Shown here: one piece after another, positions 2,561 to 37,080 of the stretch | Position numbering within the stretch: the first letter of the stretch is position 1 | Layout of the letters: each line of letters starts with the position of its first letter | Source of the DNA: Vitis vinifera | Taxonomy: Eukaryota; Streptophyta; Magnoliopsida; Vitales; Vitaceae | Assembly (NCBI RefSeq): GCF_030704535.1 | Contig: NC_081807.1 | Location: 3,513,001 to 3,577,000 of the forward strand | Reading direction: 5' to 3' | Length of the DNA stretch: 64,000 bases | Translations under genes and position numbers: made by a program | Notes under the pieces: model-generated | What the model was told of the DNA's origin: nothing | Database searches by the model: none | The model's input: the letters and a program-made list of their open reading frames with translations, nothing else

Positions 2561-2758
2561 GAAACACCGATTGCAATAATATTCAACTTAGTCTACTCTC
2601 TTGACTAGAAGTAACTCCTTTTCAAGTTTTCAACTACTCTGTCCTTTTTCCTCTTTTCTTCTCAGGCTGGCCTTTTCTAGTTGTGAATAGAATCTCGATC
2701 TCCTCTCTCTTATTTTCTTCAGTCTGTGTTTTTTTTTTTATCTTCTCTAAATTGGCTT

Positions 2759-3800
2759 ATGGCATCAGGGTCTCGCATGGGCTCTGGCTTATGGACTTCA
2801 AAGCAAAACAAACTGTTTGAAAAGGCTCTAGCCTTGTATGACAAGGACACCCCAGACCGTTGGCAGAATGTAGCCAAGGCTGTGGGTGGGAAGTCTGCCG
2901 AGGAAGTGAAGAGACACTATGAGATCCTCATTGAGGACCTCAAACATATCGAATCGGGCCATGTTCCGATTCCTAATTACAAGTCCACTGGAAGCAACAG
3001 CATTGGTGATCAAGAACAGAGGTATTACTTTTACAACATAACTCTGTTTTTCCCTTGTACATGTCATGCATGCACCATTCTGTTCAAAGTTTTCCAACTT
3101 TTGGAAAAATTGATGATTTTGGAAGTGAAATCGCTTAATACAACTTCATAGAAATGCCTATAAAATTAAGAGTTCAGCCACAGTATAGGAAGCATGGTAT
3201 GATCCATGAGGATTAAACTAAATCTGCAGAAGTTTTTTTAAGACTTAAAACATGATCTTGTCCATGTGTTGCTGCAGGCCAAACACACCCTTAAATGTAG
3301 ATAAAGAATGTATTAAATTCTCTTGGAGCTTCTTATCCTGTCCCTAATCCAAATGAAAACCCACATGAGATCTAATCCTACTGGGTGTGGATCACATGCA
3401 AGCAGTCTAGCGTCAACCACTCCCATAAAAATACAATGTAAAAGTCTTAAGAGTCCCAACCAAGATTCCCTAGTATATACCCAACTCATTATCTCCACTT
3501 GATATTCTTCAGAGCTCTTCTGGCACTGTCATGAAAGTTCTAGACTTCAAACTTCAAATCCCCATTGTTTGGACCCCCCATCTGAACTGATATAAAATGA
3601 CAATATCAAAAACTAATACTTTACTTAATTTTGTGATGTAATATTGAGTTAAGTGGAAGGGAAGAGTTGATATATAGAGCGAGAGAGAAGTATATATAGT
3701 GGTGGGCAGTGGGTAGACAGAGTTTGTCTTGTTCATATGCTAAAATTGGTCTCTCTTTTGATATCTTTACAGGCTGCTGAAGTGTATAAAGCTGCAATAA
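2759..3800 (+). CDS. RL: RADIALIS-like SANT/MYB protein (copy 1)
   Basis: Two-exon gene: 2759-3021 and 3773-3800, with a 751-bp intron (AG|GTATTA ... TTTACAG). It encodes 96 residues. One SANT/MYB-like domain fills residues about 7-60, with the family motifs [29 protein letters not shown] and [14 protein letters not shown], followed by the PNYKS tail. The tiny second exon adds the conserved end [16 protein letters not shown]-type proteins are single-repeat nuclear MYB relatives that antagonise DIVARICATA-type MYBs by binding their partner proteins; whether that holds here is inference from the family. ATG 2759 is the first ATG in the frame and has a TATA box about 205 bp upstream. The length is normal for the family. 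A paralogue in the opposite orientation lies at 57701-58626, about 54 kb away, with the same intron position and phase. Confidence 0.92.
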
Positions 3801-4047: not shown

Positions 4048-4118
4048 TGCGCATCCAGGGAATCGAACCCTGGTCAGTACCGTGGGAGGGTACTATGATA
4101 CCACTACACCAGATGCGC
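4048..4118 (-). tRNA. trnG-CCC: tRNA-Gly (CCC anticodon)
   Basis: A 71-nt cloverleaf on the minus strand: 7-bp acceptor stem (GCGCATC pairing with GATGCGC), D-arm with the A-box TGGTGTAGTGG, anticodon stem GTACC/GGTAC with loop CTCCCAC giving anticodon CCC, and T-arm containing the B-box GGTTCGATTCC. The discriminator base is A and no intron is present. All stems pair perfectly, so this is probably a functional cytosolic tRNA gene transcribed by RNA polymerase III. A run of T follows the 3' end on the minus strand, as expected for termination. Confidence 0.97.
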
Positions 4119-9230: not shown

Positions 9231-10052
9231 TCAAGTTGTTGCAGGTCCCTTAGGCGATCCAGCACCAGTTTCTCCGGATTCAGCCTTGCCCTGAACTCCA
9301 TTGGCCTCACTTAGTCTCCATATATACCAAGAAGCAACAGACCTATAAGGCCTCCACCGCTCGCAGAGCTTCTCCATCTGCGAAGGCCGCGGCAATTCTT
9401 CAAGACCGTAGAGCATTTGAACCCCTTTTCGGAGATTAGCGTCGCCCACCGGAAGCACATCGGGGCGGTGAAGAGAGAAGATCATGAACATGTGTACGGA
9501 CAACACGCCAAAACCCTTCACCATCGCTATCAATGAAACCAAAGCCCTATCTTCCATCGTCAAAATCTTCGAATCCGATAAAATTCCGGTCCGATACTTG
9601 TTCGCAAGGTCGTGCAAGAAGCTCACTTTCCGAGCCGAAACCCCAATTTGAAGAAGCTGCGGAGGGGTCAGCGCCAGAACCGAGATTGGACAAACCCTAG
9701 TCTCCCCGCCGCAGAGCGACACAAAGCGGTTGTAAATGGTGGTGCCAGCCTTGTGCGTAATTTGCTGGTATAAAATGCTCTTCGCTAAAGCCAGAAACGG
9801 AGTGTCCGAATTCTCGAATTTCGGTGGCTCATACGCATCTATCACCGGAGCAAGAACCGGGTCGGAGCTTCTCAGGTGGCGGAGAGCGGCAGCGACAACA
9901 TCATCAGAAGACAACAGTCTCGTAATTGGCAGCAAAATGGCCGCCGTCCGTGGAGAAGAGTGAGAGGACAGCTTCCGGGACTTCGCCGGCGATGGATTCT
10001 CGGGTAAAGAAGAGGGTGGCTGAGTAGTTTGGGTTTGGGTTTGCTCACCCAT
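9231..10052 (-). CDS. HhH-GPD DNA glycosylase, AlkA/MAG type (3-methyladenine DNA glycosylase II-like)
   Basis: Single-exon gene of 273 residues. It should remove alkylated bases such as 3-methyladenine by hydrolysing the N-glycosidic bond, the first step of base excision repair; this is family knowledge. Residues 1-45 are a low-complexity Ser/Pro/Gln-rich lead. The glycosylase fold starts with FLALAKSILYQQITHKAG (86-103). A helix-hairpin-helix lies at about 170-192 (LVSLIAMVKGFGVLSVHMF), followed by the RPDVLPVGDANLRKG block with the catalytic aspartate at D204. The conserved WRPYRSVASWYIWR motif (233-246) comes next. The canonical GIG of the hairpin reads GFG here. The last 22 residues are a Gly/Ala-rich tail. 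ATG 10052 is the only good start: the frame begins there and lies in GC-richer, promoter-proximal DNA. I could not place it in a numbered plant MAG subfamily. Confidence 0.92.
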   Translation of the reverse strand: MGEQTQTQTTQPPSSLPENPSPAKSRKLSSHSSPRTAAILLPITRLLSSDDVVAAALRHLRSSDPVLAPVIDAYEPPKFENSDTPFLALAKSILYQQITHKAGTTIYNRFVSLCGGETRVCPISVLALTPPQLLQIGVSARKVSFLHDLANKYRTGILSDSKILTMEDRALVSLIAMVKGFGVLSVHMFMIFSLHRPDVLPVGDANLRKGVQMLYGLEELPRPSQMEKLCERWRPYRSVASWYIWRLSEANGVQGKAESGETGAGSPKGPATT

Positions 10053-11405
10053 CAGAGAGCCTGAAACTGAGACTGAGTCTGAGTTGAGAGAGAAACCAGA
10101 CCCATCTCTCTTTCTCTAACAACTGGTTCGCGATGGTGGCACGGGGCAGTCACTCCTCAGTCCTCACTAGTCAGTGTCTCCGTGGAAAGTACACCGACCC
10201 ACCAAATGCGTCCAATCAAGTAGCCGGAAAATTCATGGGCACCAATGGTGAGCTGACATGTGGCTGCTGGTCCGTCAGTTCAGTTGCGTGCTGTTCCGTC
10301 ACCTCCGCCACGTGGCTAAAAGTTTTTACTAGGCCTAGGGTCATCAGACTCTTTACCTCTTTTACTTTAGTTGATGCTTCTATCATCCACGTGTTAGTGA
10401 AAAGTATTTTTATAATTTATTCTATAATTTTTCAGTTTAAAATTATTCTTAAAAATAATTTTTAAAATTTAGTCAAAATAATTTTTAATTAACCTTGAAT
10501 TTTAATAAAAGGTTTACCATCTCCTGAAAACAACATTCATGTTATTAATAAAAAAATATTAAGGAATTGTTTGACAATTATTTTTAAGAATAATTCTAAA
10601 AAATGATTTTTTTTAAATTATTATCTGATTTTTATAAAATAAAAGTTTATTTTATTTAGAAACTTAAAATATTCTTAATATATTTTTAATATTTTTAAAT
10701 ATGTTTTAAAAATAACTTTTATATCTAATTTTTTTTTTAATCATTTTAGATATTTGTATAATTATTTTTTTAAACAACTCTAAAAAAACAAGTGAAAAGA
10801 AGTAAAATGTATTTTATAAAAACACCTTATTTTTTATTCTTTATTATAAAAAAGAAACATAGTAGAAGAAGAAAAGAAACAAAATATTATGTATCCTTCT
10901 CATTCATTATCAGAAATATGAGTAAGAAAGCTCTAGATATAGGAGACTGAAAACAAAGAATGATATAACTGATCTGAAACTAATTTGTAGCTAATCTGTA
11001 ACTAATTCCAGTTCATCCCCTTATAATTGTTTAACTAACTAACAGAATTTTAAGAGAATCTTAATATTCTTAAAAACAAAAAAAACAGATTAAATATATT
11101 TTCTGTATTTTTTTGTTTTAAAAAATATAAAATTGTTTTAAAAAACAATCCTCAAACATGTGAGATTTAAGCCACTAAACGAGGATACCAACTAATGAGA
11201 TCAAAGCATAAATAAATGGAATCAAATTATATAGGTATTAACAGATAAAATTATAGTGCAAACAATGAGAATTAAAAATATGCTTCTGACACCTTTTGAT
11301 TGATGATAGGAAGAACTTAATAAAAATGGATATAAAAAGTACAACTCAAAACAGAGATATAGTGAATAGTGATGATACAAAATCCCAGTGCATTATGAAT
11401 TGTTA
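10053..11405. other. intergenic with an AT-rich MITE
   Basis: The first 330 bp are GC-richer promoter-like sequence of the divergent glycosylase gene. From about 10420 it becomes AT-rich transposon debris, including the element listed at 10555-10865. The 62-codon frame at 11296-11484 overlaps exon 4 of the hydrolase pseudogene on the other strand and is a shadow. Confidence 0.5.
10555..10865. mobile_element. AT-rich MITE, same family as 23775-24065
   Basis: Shares blocks with 23775-24065: an AATTCTAAAAAATGATTTTT-like start, a TTATAGAATAAAAGTTT-like block, and a TTTTAATCATTTTAGATATT-like block before an ACACCTTATTTTTTATTCTT-like end. It is non-coding. Ends were not resolved. Confidence 0.45.
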
Positions 11406-19308: not shown

Positions 19309-21167
19309 TTATTGCAGCTGCTCATATGCTGTCAAAGAGGCCAGAATCCGCTTGAGGTGGGCGTTGTAGGCACAAGGCCTCTCGAATTGAGATAGATGGC
19401 CTGCCTTCTCTATGCATTGCAGCTTCGCTTTGTCTCCCAATTGTCTGCAACCCAGTCATCAGTTATCACTACTACTGCTTCTAAGTCATTGGATCAACCC
19501 ATTAGGGCTTTGGTTATTTGATGAAACAAAATGGACTTACTCTTTCAAGTTGTGTGCCACTTCCAAGTCAAAAAGCTTGTCACCATCGCCCCATAGCAGA
19601 TATATCCTCTACCACAACAAGGAAAAAGAGAAAGGTTAGGTGAAGACAACGGGCATCTTAATATCTCTTAAGTTGTATCGATCGGTTCCCTCCTTGCTAA
19701 CCTGGTGGTAGTGGTACGGTGTGAAGTCCTCGTCCCTGATGACCAAAGCTTCCAGAAGTTCTTCTCTCTCCTTTCTGTGGCTGAACATCACCTGCCATCC
19801 ATTGCCCAAAACTCACAAACAATCTTCCAAAACTTGTAATGTATGACCTCTCTTTAAATATGTTCTAAGAATATATTTTTATAATAAATATTTTTTAAAA
19901 ACAGACTTTTTACTGTAATCAACAATAAAAACAGATTTTTGAAAATGATTTCTAAATCTCAATTTGATATCTAATTTTTTAAAAAAATAAATAAAATGAA
20001 TGGAGTCTAAATAGAACCTTCCCTTTTAGTATATTAATTCTGGCTCTATAAAAAAATAAAGAAAATTAGCAGGTTTTTTTTTTTTTTTTTTAGCTTTTAA
20101 TCTTTTAGTGATTTAGTTTTTAAAATATTTTTTTTTAAAAATGATGAAAATAAATAAATTAAACCCATGTAAATTAAAATTTTGATTTGAAAAGTTTATT
20201 TCATTATATAATTTTAAATTAATTTTTAAAAAACAATTTGAAATGAAAATATTAAAATTATTTTTCAAATAATTTCAAAATAATTTTTTATTTCATATAA
20301 TAACAATATATATCATATTAAAATTCTAAAGTATATGCAAAAAATCTATAATAGTAAAAAAAAAAAGTTATTGCTTTCTTTTAAATATATGAAAATTAAA
20401 TTTTGAAAATGCTATTTATTAATATTAAATTTTAATGAAATTTATTAATTACTAAAATGTTATATTTGGATGGGACTTGTCTAAGACGAAACTCACGCGC
20501 CAGAAAGGTTAAATGCATGGTAGCAAAACCGAGAAGCGAAGCCTACCTCAAGATAGTCCTTGAAAATCCAATTGGGAATCCATGGCGGTAACCAGTGAGT
20601 ACCGACTCTGAACATCTCCTTCACGCCTTCCACAGTGGTCGGCATCAAACACTCCGACCACCGCCGGAACCCTAGCCTCTTCAGCCTCCGATTGCTGAGC
20701 GACTCCGTCAAGGCCTCCACCGACCCGCTCACCACCATTGACTCCACCAAATCTGGGTACAGTTCAGCCATCTTGAACCCAATCATGCCTCCGTAGCTCA
20801 ACCCCACCACCACACACCTCTCCACCCCAAGCTTCCTCAACCCAGTTGCCAGACACTCCGCCTGGAACCTCGGCGACCTGTTCCCGGCGGCGGTGGCGGA
20901 GTCCCCGAAGAAGAGGAGGTCCGGCACGTAGACTGAATAATGGCTTTTGAGAGCAAGAACTTGGAACATCCACGTTAGTATCCCATCCACACCGAAGCCA
21001 TGAACAAGAACCACATTCGGCTTCTGGGTTTCTTCATTTTTTTGTTTGGCGGGGGCCCAGAAGTTCATGACGGTTCCTGGCTCGATCTCCACCTTTTTGG
21101 GTTCAACTCCGTTGAACTTCATGAGGATTTGGACAAGGGACTTCTGCAGTGTAACGATGTTCACCAT
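19309..21167 (-). CDS. alpha/beta-hydrolase fold protein (intact copy)
   Basis: Four exons on the minus strand: 20547-21167, 19702-19791, 19541-19608 and 19309-19444. They total 915 nt and encode 304 residues. All junctions are GT-AG and keep the frame (E|V, Q|R, GA|A). The protein has the HGFG oxyanion motif (56-59), the nucleophile elbow GLSYGG with S124, the acid loop WGDGDKLF with D247 the likely acid, and the catalytic histidine H276 in KAGHLSQFERP. This is the complete triad of a serine hydrolase. Its length matches the plant family of cytosolic alpha/beta-hydrolases of about 300 residues. The substrate is unknown; esterase or lipase activity would be a family-level guess. The start at 21167 is the only ATG before the conserved MVNIVTL opening. 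A TA run and a GA/CT run lie just upstream and probably belong to the promoter/leader. A disrupted relative lies about 6 kb downstream at 11406-13343, with a solo LTR between them. Confidence 0.93.
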
Positions 21168-21200
21168 TTTTAGGGTTTCTGTGTGTGGTCTCTGTCATTG

Positions 21201-23656: not shown

Positions 23657-23774
23657 ACAGTATATTTTTTTAGTACCTATCCAAAAGATATTACCAATCA
23701 AGTAATACCATATATATATATATATATACACACATTGTTAGATGTCATTGTTTACATCTATTTTCATTTATTTG

Positions 23775-24065
23775 TATCTTTATAATTCTAAAAAATTGTT
23801 TTTAAAAATTTTTTTTGAAAATAATTTTCTAATTTTTATAGAATAAAAGTTTGTTTAAGAATTAGAATATTTTTAATTTTTTATTTATACTTTAAAAATA
23901 ATTTTTATATTTAGTACTTTATTTTTAATCATTCTAAGTATTTATATAATATTTTAAAAAATAAGTAAATAAATTAAAAATAATTAAAAGATGTTATTTA
24001 AAAATACCTTGTTTTTTTTTTAAGAATAGAAAATAAAAACTATTTTTTTAATTATTAATATATTT
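23775..24065. mobile_element. AT-rich MITE, same family as 10555-10865
   Basis: Shows the same block order as 10555-10865 and ends shortly before the Mutator-like element. Non-coding. Confidence 0.45.
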
Positions 24066-24114
24066 TTATGCTTTTTTTTATTTTGAAGAATTGAAAATTG
24101 ATTTTAAAAACAAC

Positions 24115-24123
24115 TTGAAACTA
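24115..24123. repeat. 9-bp target site duplication, left (TTGAAACTA)
   Basis: Identical to 28403-28411, flanking the Mutator-like element. Confidence 0.88.
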
Positions 24124-24238
24124 GAGTTTTGACCCAAAATAGTACATTGAAAAAAAAATCCAAAAAATAAACTTATTTCCAAAATAATGCCTAATCTAAT
24201 GCATCTGTGCCACATAAGTTGTCATGTTATAAAACTGT

Positions 24239-24246
24239 AGTTGGTG
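24239..24246. repeat. 8-bp target site duplication, left (AGTTGGTG)
   Basis: Exact match to 27216-27223, flanking the hAT element. Confidence 0.92.
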
Positions 24247-24586
24247 TGATGGTCTCCAAAAAGCCCGCGGCCCGCTTTAGGCCCGGCCCGGCCCAAGCCC
24301 GTTTATGGGCGGGCCGGGCCGCGGGCCTAAATTTAGGCCCGACGGGCCGGCTCGTAGGCCCACCCTTAGGCCCGCCCCTTTAAAAAAAAACTACAAAAAT
24401 AAAAAGTATTAAAAAAAATATTCATTTCAAAATTTTATTCATTGAATGTATAATTACATTTAAAAATGTGGGAAAAGTTTACATCACTACAAAATAAATA
24501 CATCCCAACTAGGTTGGCACCTATTTATTTGTCAATCATCTGTATTTTTCAACCACAAAAAATAAAAATAAAAATATAATATACAT

Positions 24587-26584
24587 TTAGTCATTATTTT
24601 CTGGCAGTGATGGCGAACTATCATGCATCCATGAAGATCTTGATAATTTTAAAGATTCCATATCGGCAAGTATCTCTGTTTCTCGAATGGAATCGTACAT
24701 CCTTTTATCTGCTATTTCCCAATCTTTCACACATATCTCTGCTTCAATAACATCTGGCGCTAAGTTGCATTGTTTTTTACTAACTACTCTTCCACCTGCA
24801 CTAAAAGCAGCTTCTGATGCAACTGTACTCACAAGAACTGTTAGTACATCACGAGCAATTATAGAAAGCACAGGATATTTGTGTTGATGTGATTTCCACC
24901 ATATTAAAATATCAAAATCTTCTTGATCTTCAAATGAAATTATATCAGTATTAAGATATTTATCTAAATCAGATGTATTATTTGGAGAACTATTTATTGT
25001 CTTTTTTCGACTTTTCAACATTTCTAGAGCTCCTTTATAAAAAGATGAGGAGTTTGTAGATGTAGGTGGTAATTTAATACTATTAATATTATTACCATAT
25101 TTTTCTTTATAATAGTTATATAAATTATGTAATAATGAATTTATTTCATTTTTAATTTCTTCAATTTTTATTTGGTCATTAAAATAAATAATTGTTAACC
25201 ATTCATCCAAAGCTTCAAATTTCAATCTAGGGTCCACAATTAAAGCAATATAAAAAATTAAAGGTATTTCCCCCCAATATTTTCTAAATTTTTCTATCAT
25301 TGCAAATATTGTATCATTAAATATTTCAAAACTTAAATATTTTTGAAGTACAATAAAAATATTAGTTATTTGCATAATAACTCGATTTGAAGTTGGATAA
25401 TATACACCACAAAAAATGTTTGTTGAAGTATCAAAAATTTCAAAAAGATCTGCAATATGCCAATCATAATCACTTAATGCATAAATATCTGCTTCACAAT
25501 CATTGTTAAGTAATTGTATTTCATATAATTCGACTACTTTTCTATATTTTGTAATATTTTGTAAAAGTTTATATGTGGAATTCCATCTAATGGTCATATC
25601 CAAATTTATATTTTTTCTTTTCATATTTAACATTTTGCAACAATCAAAAAATAATTCATGTTTTGCTTGAGAACTATTAATACTATATGCAATGCCTCTA
25701 ATTTTTTCCAATGTATTATCAACATTTTTTAATCCATCCTTTACAATTAAATTTAAAATATGTGCACAACAACGCACATGAAATATTTTAGCATGATCTT
25801 CTTTTACTTGCCAATATCGTTTTAGTCTATGTATTGTTGTATCATTATTAGCAGCATTATCTAATGTTATTGTCAATATTTTATCACGAATGCCTAAATC
25901 TATAATTTCATCATTTATTAAAGATGCTATATTTTTACCATTATGTGGAGCATTTATTAATTTAAATGAAATTATTCTTTTATTTAATTTCCATTCATTA
26001 TCAATGTAGTGAGCAGTTATACATAAAAAACCAGTGTGAGTTAAAGATGTCCAAATATCAGATGTTAAACAAATATTTCCTTCAAAATTTGCAAAAAAAA
26101 TTTTTAAAATTTCTTTTTGTGTATAAATTTTTTTCATAATATCTCTTTTAACTGTATTTCCAGACCAACCTTTAAATTGAGGATTAATACCTCGTTGAAT
26201 TGTTCCTACAAAATCATGAGTTTCCATTATGTTGAAAGGTTGTTCTGCTCTTATTATATAATCAATCATTTCTTCACGACAGTTAGATTCATAATAAGAA
26301 AATGTTTTTAAATTTCCACTTTCATTTTTACCTAATTGCATATAATTTCTAATATCTACATTATTTTTAGTTTTACAATTTTCGTGATGTCTTTTTAAAT
26401 GACTTGTGTCTGCATTTGAGCCACCAGTAAGAAATTTATTACAAATTTTACATTTTGCTTTTATTTCTTTTTTATTATTTTCTAAAATTATTTCTATTCT
26501 ATAAAAAAAATTCCATATATTTGAAGTAAATTTTTTGTTTGATGATATTTCATCACATGGACTAGATGAAAAAGCACTTGTCAT
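24587..26584 (-). CDS. hAT-family transposase (BED zinc finger, RICESLEEPER-like), uninterrupted
   Basis: 665 residues with no stop or frameshift. A BED-type zinc finger lies at about 22-70 (C45, C48, H62/H66, C70: AKCKICNKFLTGG, HLKRHHENC). The RNase H-like catalytic core has its first Asp at D176 (LTSDIWTS), second Asp at D242 (TLDNAAN), the CxxH of the hAT core at C272-H275 (RCCAHILNLIVKDGL) and TIRWNSTYKLL at 331-341. The third acid is E591 in the C-terminal block VASEAAFSAGGRV. That block, with the WW pair at 562-563, belongs to the hAT dimerisation domain. This is the usual length and domain order for plant Ac-type hAT transposases of the ZBED/RICESLEEPER group. It would cut and paste the surrounding element in the nucleus. 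Start chosen at the ATG at 26584, the first in frame, with a TATA box about 280 bp upstream. All acidic residues are present, so activity is possible; this is inference. Confidence 0.95.
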   Translation of the reverse strand: MTSAFSSSPCDEISSNKKFTSNIWNFFYRIEIILENNKKEIKAKCKICNKFLTGGSNADTSHLKRHHENCKTKNNVDIRNYMQLGKNESGNLKTFSYYESNCREEMIDYIIRAEQPFNIMETHDFVGTIQRGINPQFKGWSGNTVKRDIMKKIYTQKEILKIFFANFEGNICLTSDIWTSLTHTGFLCITAHYIDNEWKLNKRIISFKLINAPHNGKNIASLINDEIIDLGIRDKILTITLDNAANNDTTIHRLKRYWQVKEDHAKIFHVRCCAHILNLIVKDGLKNVDNTLEKIRGIAYSINSSQAKHELFFDCCKMLNMKRKNINLDMTIRWNSTYKLLQNITKYRKVVELYEIQLLNNDCEADIYALSDYDWHIADLFEIFDTSTNIFCGVYYPTSNRVIMQITNIFIVLQKYLSFEIFNDTIFAMIEKFRKYWGEIPLIFYIALIVDPRLKFEALDEWLTIIYFNDQIKIEEIKNEINSLLHNLYNYYKEKYGNNINSIKLPPTSTNSSSFYKGALEMLKSRKKTINSSPNNTSDLDKYLNTDIISFEDQEDFDILIWWKSHQHKYPVLSIIARDVLTVLVSTVASEAAFSAGGRVVSKKQCNLAPDVIEAEICVKDWEIADKRMYDSIRETEILADMESLKLSRSSWMHDSSPSLPENND

Positions 26585-26862
26585 ATTATAATTATTGATA
26601 AAATATTATGCCAAAAATAATAAAGTAATAAATATAAAAAAAATATATAACAAAAAAATAAAGTAGTGGGGGTGAAGTATGTTACTCAATTAGAGAACCG
26701 ATGCAGAAATTCCTAGCAAATTTGAACTCTTGGAGCCACCAATGCTTGTTTTGCACCACCAACAATATTGTATAATTTGAGGGAAAAATAAAAGAATTTG
26801 AAATATTGTAGAATGTGAGAGAAATAGAGAGAATTTGATGAAAAAATGAAAAGGAAGAAAAT

Positions 26863-26871
26863 GTATTTATA
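26863..26871 (-). promoter_or_regulatory. TATA box of the hAT transposase gene
   Basis: Reads TATAAATAC on the minus strand, about 280 bp upstream of the ATG. The following leader is CT-rich (TTCTCTCTATTTCTCTCACA), typical of a plant 5' UTR. Confidence 0.5.
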
Positions 26872-26953
26872 GGAAGGTTTTTTTAAATAAAAAAAAAAAA
26901 AAAATTGGCCATGTGACCGTTGGAGCCTTTAATTTTTTTTAAAAAAATAATAT

Positions 26954-26958
<5 letters not shown>

Positions 26959-27011
<53 letters not shown>
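26959..27011. repeat. (AT)n microsatellite inside the hAT element
   Basis: About 26 AT units without interruption between the transposase promoter and the tRNA-like sequence. Confidence 0.95.
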
Positions 27012-27013
<2 letters not shown>

Positions 27014-27019
27014 CACAAA

Positions 27020-27093
27020 AGGAATGTAGCTCAGTTGGTTAGAGCCTTGATATGAAAGCATGAGGGGAGAGGTTCGAATCCCCCCCCTCTCCC
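27020..27093 (+). ncRNA. tRNA-like sequence with Pol III A and B boxes inside the hAT element
   Basis: The A box TAGCTCAGTTGG (27027-27038) and the B box GGTTCGAATCC (27071-27081) match the internal RNA polymerase III promoter consensus, with spacing as in a tRNA gene. The D-stem GCTC/GAGC is intact. The acceptor stem does not pair, the anticodon stem is poor and the T-stem side is a run of C, so it is not a working tRNA gene. It is best described as a tRNA-derived relic or Pol III promoter. It may be an old tRNA or SINE head picked up by the element. Confidence 0.6.
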
Positions 27094-27215
27094 TTCCTTT
27101 CTTTAAAAGCCATTTTGGCTTATTTGAAAAAGCCCACGGCCCGGCCCGCCAGCCCGCGGGCTCATAGGCCGGGCCACGGGCCTCCTATTTACGGCCCGGC
27201 CGTTGGAGACCCTTA

Positions 27216-27223
27216 AGTTGGTG
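27216..27223. repeat. 8-bp target site duplication, right (AGTTGGTG)
   Basis: Exact repeat of 24239-24246. Confidence 0.92.
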
Positions 27224-28402
27224 ACTACGGTTTTATTTTTCCACGGTTTTAACTTTAAGTTTAAAATAAAATTATTATATTATTTTGATTTTAAATAAAA
27301 CTTATCTCATTATTTAAAAAATAATAATATATGAAATTAAATAATTGATATTTTTAATTTTATATAAAATATATATTTTTTCTAAAACGGTTAGAAATTC
27401 TAGTTACAAACCACGGTTTTAACTTTAAGTTTAAAATAAAATTATTATATTATTTTGATTTTAAATAAACTTATCTCATTATTTAAAAAATAATAATATA
27501 TGAAATTAAATAATTGATATTTTTAATTTTATATAAAATATATATTTTTAATTTTATTAAAACAATTGGCACTATTAAAAATATTTAATATAAATATAAT
27601 TAGTTAATTAAAATTAAATATAAATATCATATAATAAATTATAAAAGCCTATTTAGAAAAAAAAACAAATAATATAAATTAATAATTTTTTATATATTAT
27701 ATGTAAGTGGTATATAATATCACATATATATAAAAGTTTAATTTAAGTTTAAAATTTATCATATTTTTATTTAAATATATAAATAAATTATTATCATATC
27801 GATATAATATTATGAACTTAAATTGAACTTATATACATGTGATATTATATATCACTTACATATAGTATATAAAAAAATATTAATTAATATAATAATTTAT
27901 ATTATTTGTTTTCTTAATAGGCTTTCATAATTTATTATATTTTATTTATATTTAAATATAATTAACTAAATGTATTTATATTAAATATAGTGGCTATTTT
28001 TTAATAAAATTTTAAGAAAAATTATATCAAATTAAGAATATCAATTATTTAAAATCATATATTATTATTTTTTAAATAATGAAATAAGTTTATTTAAAAT
28101 CAAAATAATATAATATTTTATTTAAAAAATTAAAGTTATATATATATATATAACTACGATTTTGACCATTTTTAAAAGAATTCAAAATCGGAATCACCAA
28201 TTGCACCTTTAAACTTAAAGTTAAAATCGTAGTTAGTGACTATGGTTTTTAACTATTTTAAAAAATAAAATTCTAGTCACCAAATACGGTTTTATAATTT
28301 CACATCTTATGTAACACAATCACACTAAATTGAGTATTATTGTAGAAACAAGTTCATTTTTTGGAATTTTTTTTTTCAATGTACCATTTTCGGGCAAAAC
28401 TC

Positions 28403-35145: not shown

Positions 35146-36660
35146 CTAGGCAACTACCTCAACTGGATACTTGTTGATGCAATCTTCCCATGGGCCATTA
35201 GGAGAGGGATTCACATTCCGAAGGGCCTGCCAAACTGCACTGTTACATTTGAATCCACTTCCAAAAGCAATCTGCCACACTCGGTTCCCCTTCCTCATCC
35301 TCCCCTTGGCCTCGATGTAAGATAGCTCATACCAAATGGAACTTGATGAAGTGTTACCAAACCGGTGAAGAGTCATCCGAGAAGCCTCAACATGTGAGGG
35401 CAAAAGCTGCAGATTCTTCTCAAGTTCATCAATCACAGCCCTCCCACCAGCATGTATGCAGAAGTGCTCAAACGCAAGCTTGAAATCCGGTATATAAGGC
35501 TTGACCTTAGCATTAAACAACTTCTTGGCAACAAGTGTGGCAAAGAAAAGAAGCTGCTCACTAATTGGAAGCACAAGGGGACCCAATGTGGTGATATTAG
35601 TCTTAAGGGCACCCCCTGCAATTGCCATGAGATCCTTGGACAATGAAACACCAGTTTTCCCAGCATCATCCTGCTCCTGATAAACACACCGAAATGCCTT
35701 ATCATCAGCCCCACGGTGCGTCCTCACTAGATGAACAAGCTTATACTTGGCCCGCCTTCGGTCTCCAGATTTATTTGACAGCAAAACAGCTGCTCCCCCA
35801 ACCCGAAATAAACAATTGGGGATTAACATGGATTTCTTGTTCCCAAAATACCAATTCTGAGTAATGTTCTCAGTACTAACAACAACTGCATAAGTATTCC
35901 TATGAACTTGCAACATATCTTTAGCCAAATCAACAGCTATGACACCAGCACTACACCCCATTCCTCCTAGGTTAAAACTCCTAATATTACCCCTCAATTT
36001 ATACTTGTTAACAATCATAGCAGACAAGGATGGAGTTGGATTAAACAGACTACAATTCACAACAAGTATTCCAATGTCCTTAGGCTTAACATTGGTATTA
36101 GCAAATAGCTTATCCAATGAACCAAACATCACCTGCTCGGCCTCTTCACGTGCCGCCGCCATGGAAGGCTGGGGGGGAATATAATGCATCGCCTCCGGCA
36201 CATAAGTCTCCTCTCCGAGCCCAGACCGCTCGAGGATCTTTCTCTGGAACTCCAACGCCGACTCGTCGAAGTCGCCGGTGAGCCTCGAATGCTCCATGAA
36301 CTGATGGTACCGGACTTGGAGGTGGGACGGCGGGCGATAACAGGCGTAGTCGACGAGGTAAATGGATCGAGGACGAGTCATGATGTAGACGGTGGATCCG
36401 AAAACGAGAAAAGCAGAGCAAATGATGATACTGACGAGATTGTACTGGAGGTGAAGCCAAAGCTGATGAATATCATCTGGGTTCTTCTGTGAAGCCTCGA
36501 CGATAATCAGGGCCATTAAAGGGATCAAACAGAGAGTCAACAAATGGGTTATCAGATAATGATACCCCAATTTCACATACTTGAGATTGACACTCTGAAG
36601 AAAATCAGGCAATCCACGACCCTGCTGGATCTGAACACCCACTTCACCTCCCGAATTCAT
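35146..36660 (-). CDS. KCS: 3-ketoacyl-CoA synthase (KCS, FAE1/CUT1-like), KCS4/KCS9-type
   Basis: Single-exon gene of 504 residues. KCS is the condensing enzyme of the ER fatty acid elongase: it joins acyl-CoA and malonyl-CoA to give 3-ketoacyl-CoA, and so sets the chain length of very-long-chain fatty acids for waxes, suberin and sphingolipids. Two membrane helices lie at about 36-56 and 74-95. The catalytic Cys is C236 in [10 protein letters not shown], with H403 in CIHAGGRAV and N436 in RFGNTSSSS, so the triad is complete. Other family blocks are present ([38 protein letters not shown]). The N-terminal [19 protein letters not shown] and the C-terminal [11 protein letters not shown] favour the KCS4/KCS9 group over CER6- or FAE1-type; the exact member is not certain. 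The start at 36660 is the first ATG of the frame and the length is standard. Confidence 0.96.
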
Positions 36661-37080
36661 GGAGCTCAGTCAGTACTGAGAAATCACCGTATCCACACCT
36701 GGGTTTTGTAGACTGATACGAAATACTCAGAGGGTACGAACCAGTCTATATAAATACCTCCAATCTATACCAAAGCTGTACGGATCTGAATAAAGAAACA
36801 GAGGAGTTGGGTTTGGAAATGGGGTTCGATAAACTACAACAACGACCAAAATCAACCACCCAAAACACAGATTCTGAGTTCAATAGAGAGAGAGAGAGAG
36901 CGCCTTGTGAAGACCTCTCTCCCTGCACTGGGAGTTGGGAAGATGGGCGATTGTTGAAGGAGTCCTTTGAAATTTGCACAACTCACTTCTTCTCTCTCCT
37001 TTTATAAGCACAAAAAAACACGGAAACAAGAAAAAGAGAAAGAGATAAATGGGCTTTTGAATTTGTTCCAATTTTTTTCT
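36661..37080. other. 5' leader and promoter region of the KCS gene
   Basis: Pyrimidine-rich on the minus strand, with (CT)n at about 36883-36901 and a TATA-like TTTATATAG near 36743-36755. Small open frames on both strands are probably upstream frames or shadows. Confidence 0.4.

Follow-up and report, generated by a model that had tools for sequence, protein, structure and literature searches.

The terminal inverted repeats of hAT transposons are short, usually with an A at position 2 and a G at position 5. RNA polymerase III (Pol III) promoters, for their part, are known in SINEs and in some LTR elements. For grapevine (Vitis vinifera), Benjak et al. (2008; PMC2528002, Table 2) list Hatvine-9 as 2.9 kb long, with an 8-bp terminal inverted repeat and an 8-bp target-site duplication, and as the only high-copy family of that length in the table. 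Their account counts 76 copies that retain over 90% of the transposase, 113 deleted copies, 6 potentially functional open reading frames (ORFs) and 7 EST hits. The same article reports that most of eleven tested insertions were polymorphic among seven cultivars.

Here we consider a hAT element in a 64-kb stretch of grapevine DNA (the window, by which we mean that whole stretch). It is very probably an ordinary cut-and-paste hAT that belongs to a large plant family, which is most likely Hatvine-9. That family has been mobile recently, while the window copy is older, has drifted, and probably encodes a weak or dead transposase. As a transposon the locus is nothing out of the ordinary: a further copy from a family probably catalogued in 2008. 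Its right end carries a tRNA-like module that calls for separate discussion.

The element, its ends and its family

The window copy, L001 in our numbering of loci, occupies exactly 24247–27215, a hAT element of 2,969 bp between perfect 8-bp duplications, with the following parts.

24239–24246, unstranded: left target-site duplication, AGTTGGTG
24247–27215, minus strand (that of the transposase gene): hAT element
24247–24259, plus strand: left terminal inverted repeat, TGATGGTCTCCAA
24247–24381, unstranded: left GC-rich subterminal region, with 9 GGCCCG/CGGGCC motifs
24587–26584, minus strand: transposase ORF, 665 aa, with no internal stop
Within 24587–26584, minus strand: BED finger (aa 21–66), RNase-H-like domain (aa 394–490) and dimerisation domain (aa 539–622)
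25442–25443, minus strand: junction at which 12 bp of most copies (four codons, DLLR) are missing, as they are in L031 and L044
26863–26873, minus strand: TATA box of the transposase gene, CCTATAAATAC, read from the sequence
26912–26914, unstranded: approximate point of 61 missing alignment columns (a palindromic CAACGGTCACATGACCGTTG region in most copies)
27131–27215, unstranded: right GC-rich subterminal region, including the right terminal inverted repeat (27203–27215)
27216–27223, unstranded: right target-site duplication, AGTTGGTG

An earlier note on this DNA had claimed a perfect target duplication, terminal inverted repeats, GC-rich subterminal repeats, a TATA box and an uninterrupted transposase of 665 codons, and all of these are borne out. 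The two copies of the duplication agree without mismatch, the ends read inwards (TGATGGTCTCCAA and TAAGGGTCTCCAA) are equal at 11 of 13 positions, and GGCCCG/CGGGCC motifs number 9 in the left 135 bp and 5 in the right 85 bp, against 0.48 and 0.38 in shuffled sequence. The TATA box stands on the minus strand as listed. In the protein, D176, D242, E591, C272xxH275 and R333-W334 are in place, and three Pfam domains score above cut-off: zf-BED (28.8 bits), hAT-like_RNase-H (47.2) and Dimer_Tnp_hAT (95.3). The only clear relative among solved structures is the Hermes transposase in the PDB (E 1.4e-9 to 2.7e-8), to whose catalytic aspartates and glutamate D176, D242 and E591 align; a comparison of the BED finger with solved structures returned no BED relative among the matches. 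By the example of its family, the transposase would bind the GC-rich subterminal repeats through the BED finger, cut at the inverted ends with its RNase-H-like D-D-E domain, and produce the 8-bp duplication by staggered joining.

The right end, TAAGG, fits the A2/G5 pattern, and the left end, TGATG, has a G at position 2. This TGATGG form is common to the window copy, L010, L015 and L026, and departs from the commoner TAGGGG/TAAGGG. Because L010 and L026 lie between different perfect duplications of other sequence, the TGATGG end must have been mobile, and we rejected it as sole evidence of a defect. The right end of the window copy is also short: 61 alignment columns found in most copies near 26913, upstream of the transposase promoter, are absent, as are further GC-rich columns near 27148 and 27199. 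Its 5 right-end GGCCCG-type motifs compare with 14–17 in L037, L039 and L040, 7 in L035 and 2 in L013. Palindromic CAACGGTCATGTGACCGTTG-like repeats at 26905–26930, upstream of the transposase TATA box, are kept between the two subfamilies introduced below and partly lost in the window copy; they are a possible regulator or transposase site.

A DNA search of the genome yielded 333 candidates, of which the best 40 were scored; window copy aside, these are 91–98% identical to it, and all 39 were retrieved and compared with it. A protein search was scored for the best 67 of 581 candidates, and the family is accordingly larger than either scored set. L002–L008 are other cuts of the places L009–L015 and were counted once; L047, partial and poorly aligned, was left out of the tree and of the private-change and ORF-consensus counts; and the right-end alignment, leaving out L032, L036 and L047, comprises 37 copies. 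Taking the best-scoring end pair at each of the 40 loci, we found perfect 8-bp duplications at 33 and one-mismatch duplications at 4 more, with those of L015 and L032 looking spurious; none was obtained for L031 or L047, and at L044 a shift by one base gives an alternative free of mismatches. Elements built alike stand between other duplications at other loci, and the structure of the window element is therefore beyond chance. With the right end alone as query (best 40 of 195 candidates scored), several places outside the ORF list were matched, which suggests non-autonomous derivatives.

The surroundings are themselves repetitive. Just right of the element, at 27241–27549, lie 1.8 copies of a 169-bp unit at 99% identity, and from about 27374 the sequence belongs to a high-copy repeat whose inverted partner occupies 27766–28138, resembling a foldback element. 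The left flank at 23782–24125 is a dispersed repeat with copies 74–81% identical on many contigs (best 40 of 3,162 candidates). Searches with the left flank (23700–24238) and the right flank (27224–27800) revealed no empty site elsewhere in the genome, and neither match reaches the insertion point: the left one, to the dispersed repeat, extends only to about 24125 (best 40 of 3,162 candidates), and the right one, to the high-copy inverted repeat, begins only at about 27374 (best 40 of 382 candidates). Elsewhere in the window, judging from the translations of other long reading frames, the one at 35146–36669 resembles a 3-ketoacyl-CoA synthase, that at 20493–21194 an alpha/beta hydrolase, that at 9231–10115 a DNA glycosylase and that at 2687–3151 a MYB-like protein.

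A tRNA-like module in the right end

Between 26958 and 27116, on the plus strand and so opposite to the transposase gene, a module resembling part of a tRNA gene points at the right end of the element.

26958–27011, unstranded: (TA)27 tract upstream of the tRNA-like module
27014–27021, plus strand: CAA-type start motif, CACAAAAG
27027–27081, plus strand: tRNA-derived module, with A box TAGCTCAGTTGG (27027–27038) and B box GGTTCGAATCC (27071–27081)
27113–27116, plus strand: T run, a possible Pol III terminator

These are the features of a type 2 Pol III promoter: an A box followed by a B box at tRNA-like spacing, a TATA/CAA stretch upstream and a T run downstream. A tRNA-Gly gene with anticodon CCC at 4048–4118 on the minus strand served as an internal control of the box scan. 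A functional tRNA in the right end was rejected: Rfam gave no tRNA match in the window module or in the 20 of the 39 other loci that were scanned, ARAGORN called a tRNA in 2 of 40 loci, the cloverleaf of a functional tRNA gene was not found, and four folds were no better than those of shuffled sequence (z −0.8 to −1.4), the stretch taken from L037 having missed most of the module. Rfam matches below the gathering threshold in the right end (a pestivirus UTR, mir-341 and others) were taken as chance products of the TA tract and a GC hairpin.

What, then, has kept the module? The reading we lean towards is that a tRNA fragment was caught long ago and has been kept only by descent, or that its motifs are binding sites of the transposase. 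The want of a cloverleaf is consistent with this, as is the near-palindromic form of the B-box stretch itself (AGGGGTTCGAATCCCC), and so is a pattern of conservation that is decidedly mixed. Within the window subfamily, variation in the A box is close to that in the spacer (9.0% versus 10.6%), and in a sister subfamily of about 80% protein identity the B box varies more than the spacer (18.5% versus 5.5%); in both, the 5' leader varies less than the boxes, at 1.0% and 2.5%. Nine right ends of the sister subfamily have a module in the corresponding position whose middle part differs, and in the sister copies L048–L056 that difference lies around CTTATGGATCCATAAG. Against descent or transposase binding stands the fact that the islands conserved between the subfamilies are exactly the Pol III motifs, the upstream CAA included: the two consensuses agree at 31 of 32 positions of the CAA, A and B motifs versus 37 of 67 in the rest of the stretch, and only 173 of 20,000 random placements agree as well.

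The same agreement speaks for a tentative alternative, to which we give clearly less credence, namely that the module is a working internal Pol III promoter, from which a short outward RNA might be made or by which TFIIIC might be recruited, keeping the end open. Exact pairs of A and B boxes occur twice in the 64-kb window, at the module and at the tRNA-Gly gene, and in none of 20,000 shuffled versions of the right end. Both boxes lie within three mismatches in 37 of 40 copies; in the right-end alignment they are exact in 30 of 37, and CAA, A box, B box and TTTT are found together in 29 of 37. The order of CAA, A box, B box and T run also matches the layout described for plant tRNA genes (PMC11700998). 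Of the nine sister right ends, 7 keep a B box within two mismatches. The individual sister copies, however, are decayed, with an exact B box in 3 of 9 and an exact pair in none of 9; the variation of the boxes set out above, together with the Rfam, ARAGORN and folding results, likewise tells against a working promoter, and in the window copy the (TA)27 tract stands in place of the usual stretch before the CAA. Taken together, the evidence for constraint on the module is mixed.

More speculative again is the fuller proposal, which we regard as doubtful, of a hAT family with a tRNA-derived Pol III promoter in its subterminal region, beside the transposase promoter, kept through the split of the two subfamilies and pointing out through the right end. 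The short RNA, or a hold by TFIIIC, might then shield the element from silencing or separate its promoter from the surroundings. If true, a DNA transposon, which has no use for an RNA copy, would contain a control element like those of SINEs. A search of the open-access PMC literature by title or abstract start found no account of Pol III boxes in a hAT element, and a real module would raise the question of what role the Pol III machinery has in a cut-and-paste element.

A young family and an older copy

Divergence was computed over element positions 110–2650. Among the best 40 of 333 candidates, nine copies (L013, L033 and L036–L042) lie no more than 0.2% from their nearest copy, L037 and L040 being identical over the compared 2.5 kb, and the family has therefore moved recently. 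The window copy is 1.10% from L015, its nearest in that set, 1.38% from L010 and 1.58% from L026, and its terminal branch in the tree of 39 copies measures 0.73%, not an extreme value beside the 0 to 2.2% of other copies. At a plant rate of 6.5e-9 substitutions per site and year the branch corresponds to about 1.1 million years; this is an upper limit for the insertion, and the rate may shift it two-fold either way. At such a depth the flawless 8-bp duplication is uninformative on age. The distances point to a young, recently active family with the window copy outside its youngest members. In other words, the recent activity that the earlier note had suggested is supported for the family and not for the window copy.

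That suggestion had been drawn from intactness, on the premise that an intact copy is unusual, and the premise is not supported here. The frame is open in 14 of the best 40 copies of 333 (L001, L013, L014, L016, L029, L033, L035–L040, L042 and L046), and 15 of the best 67 protein matches of 581 have no stop; within the neighbourhood of L001, L009, L010, L015, L026 and L028, the window copy alone has an open frame. We took the majority of its five nearest copies as the inferred local ancestor, from which the window ORF differs by 17 changes, none of them synonymous. Under a random-change model, in which 19% of substitutions are synonymous and 5.7% make a stop, the probability of no synonymous change among 17 is near 0.026 by simple arithmetic, and that of a frame still open after 17 changes about 0.37. 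Because the 17 changes include no synonymous one, nothing indicates that selection has maintained the function of the protein, and intactness is weak evidence for activity.

Six of the changes are unique to the window copy: S5F, G59D, D98Y, M119I, T530I and P660L. At position 59, in the BED finger, 38 of 39 copies have G and the window copy alone has D; in the sister subfamily, 4 of the 5 sequences read have G and the fifth has S, L058 having given no readable BED stretch. In Tgf2, another hAT element, the BED finger is required for binding of the ends (PMC4890040). P584 and R605 are each found in 36 of 39 copies, and Hermes has the same two residues where it aligns; the window copy has L and Q. 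The earlier note had named a key residue shown to be wrong by alignment to active hAT transposases as a refutation, and part of this is borne out: in the alignment to Hermes, P584L and R605Q depart from residues that Hermes shares with the family majority, and G59D is unique among 39 copies. D176, D242 and E591 themselves are right. Dimer_Tnp_hAT scores 95.3 bits, where three open relatives reach 102.4, 97.3 and 101.8. Against impairment, zf-BED and RNase-H stay above the Pfam cut-off, zf-BED dropping only from 30.2–31.8 to 28.8 bits and RNase-H scoring the same as in L014. A departure from the family consensus is no proof of damage, and with an open frame and all catalytic residues the window copy may still be active; on balance, though, an impaired transposase is the likelier case.

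It is accordingly improbable that the window copy is a fully autonomous and presently active element. In favour of that reading stand the open frame, D176/D242/E591, CxxH motif, BED finger, dimerisation domain, TATA box and perfect duplication, and elements with its TGATGG end (L010 and L026) do sit elsewhere between perfect duplications. Set against this are G59D, P584L, R605Q, the four-codon deletion and the 17 changes without a synonymous one; the missing promoter-side repeats; the want of a near-identical daughter among the best 40 of 333, the nearest being 1.1% away; and 5 right subterminal motifs where the young L037, L039 and L040 have 14–17 (the young L013, however, has 2).

The history we favour is that of an older, drifted copy in a mobile family. 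Recent movement would have been that of a young subfamily, with the window copy on an older branch; its insertion would fall at some point along the 0.73% terminal branch, with drift ever since. Substitutions in the BED finger and near the catalytic glutamate, with four codons lost, would probably leave it a weak or dead source of transposase, and its ends might still be moved by the enzyme of a relative. The case shows why, when a family is large and young, an open frame by itself says little about activity.

Comparison with known systems

The Hermes transposase (6dww, 2bw3, 4d1q, 8edg) shares with that of the window copy the aligned D, D and E, a W, the RW pair and a C-terminal ASE motif. 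It is nonetheless remote in sequence, and at P584 and R605 the window copy departs both from Hermes and from the majority of its own family.

A second comparison is with Hatvine-9, to which the window family probably belongs. Compared by published description (PMC2528002), the two are alike in a length of 2.9 kb, an 8-bp duplication, a short inverted repeat, high copy number and several intact ORFs. The inverted repeat is given there as 8 bp, against a 9-bp identical core in the window element, and the article's main text makes no mention of a tRNA, Pol III or subterminal repeats. Another grapevine hAT, hAT-7_VV or Hatvine-7, likewise has intact loci, with eight full-length ORF reads by ONT reported for it (PMC9097378), but at 3.9 kb is a different family.

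For the module, the instructive parallel lies outside the hAT elements. The Helenus LTR retrotransposons, as described in PMC10886601, have kept tRNA-derived A and B boxes in which the tRNA fold is mostly not functional, much as in the right ends examined here. There, however, the module sits in the LTRs of a retrotransposon, where it would drive a mobile RNA, whereas here it lies in a DNA transposon.
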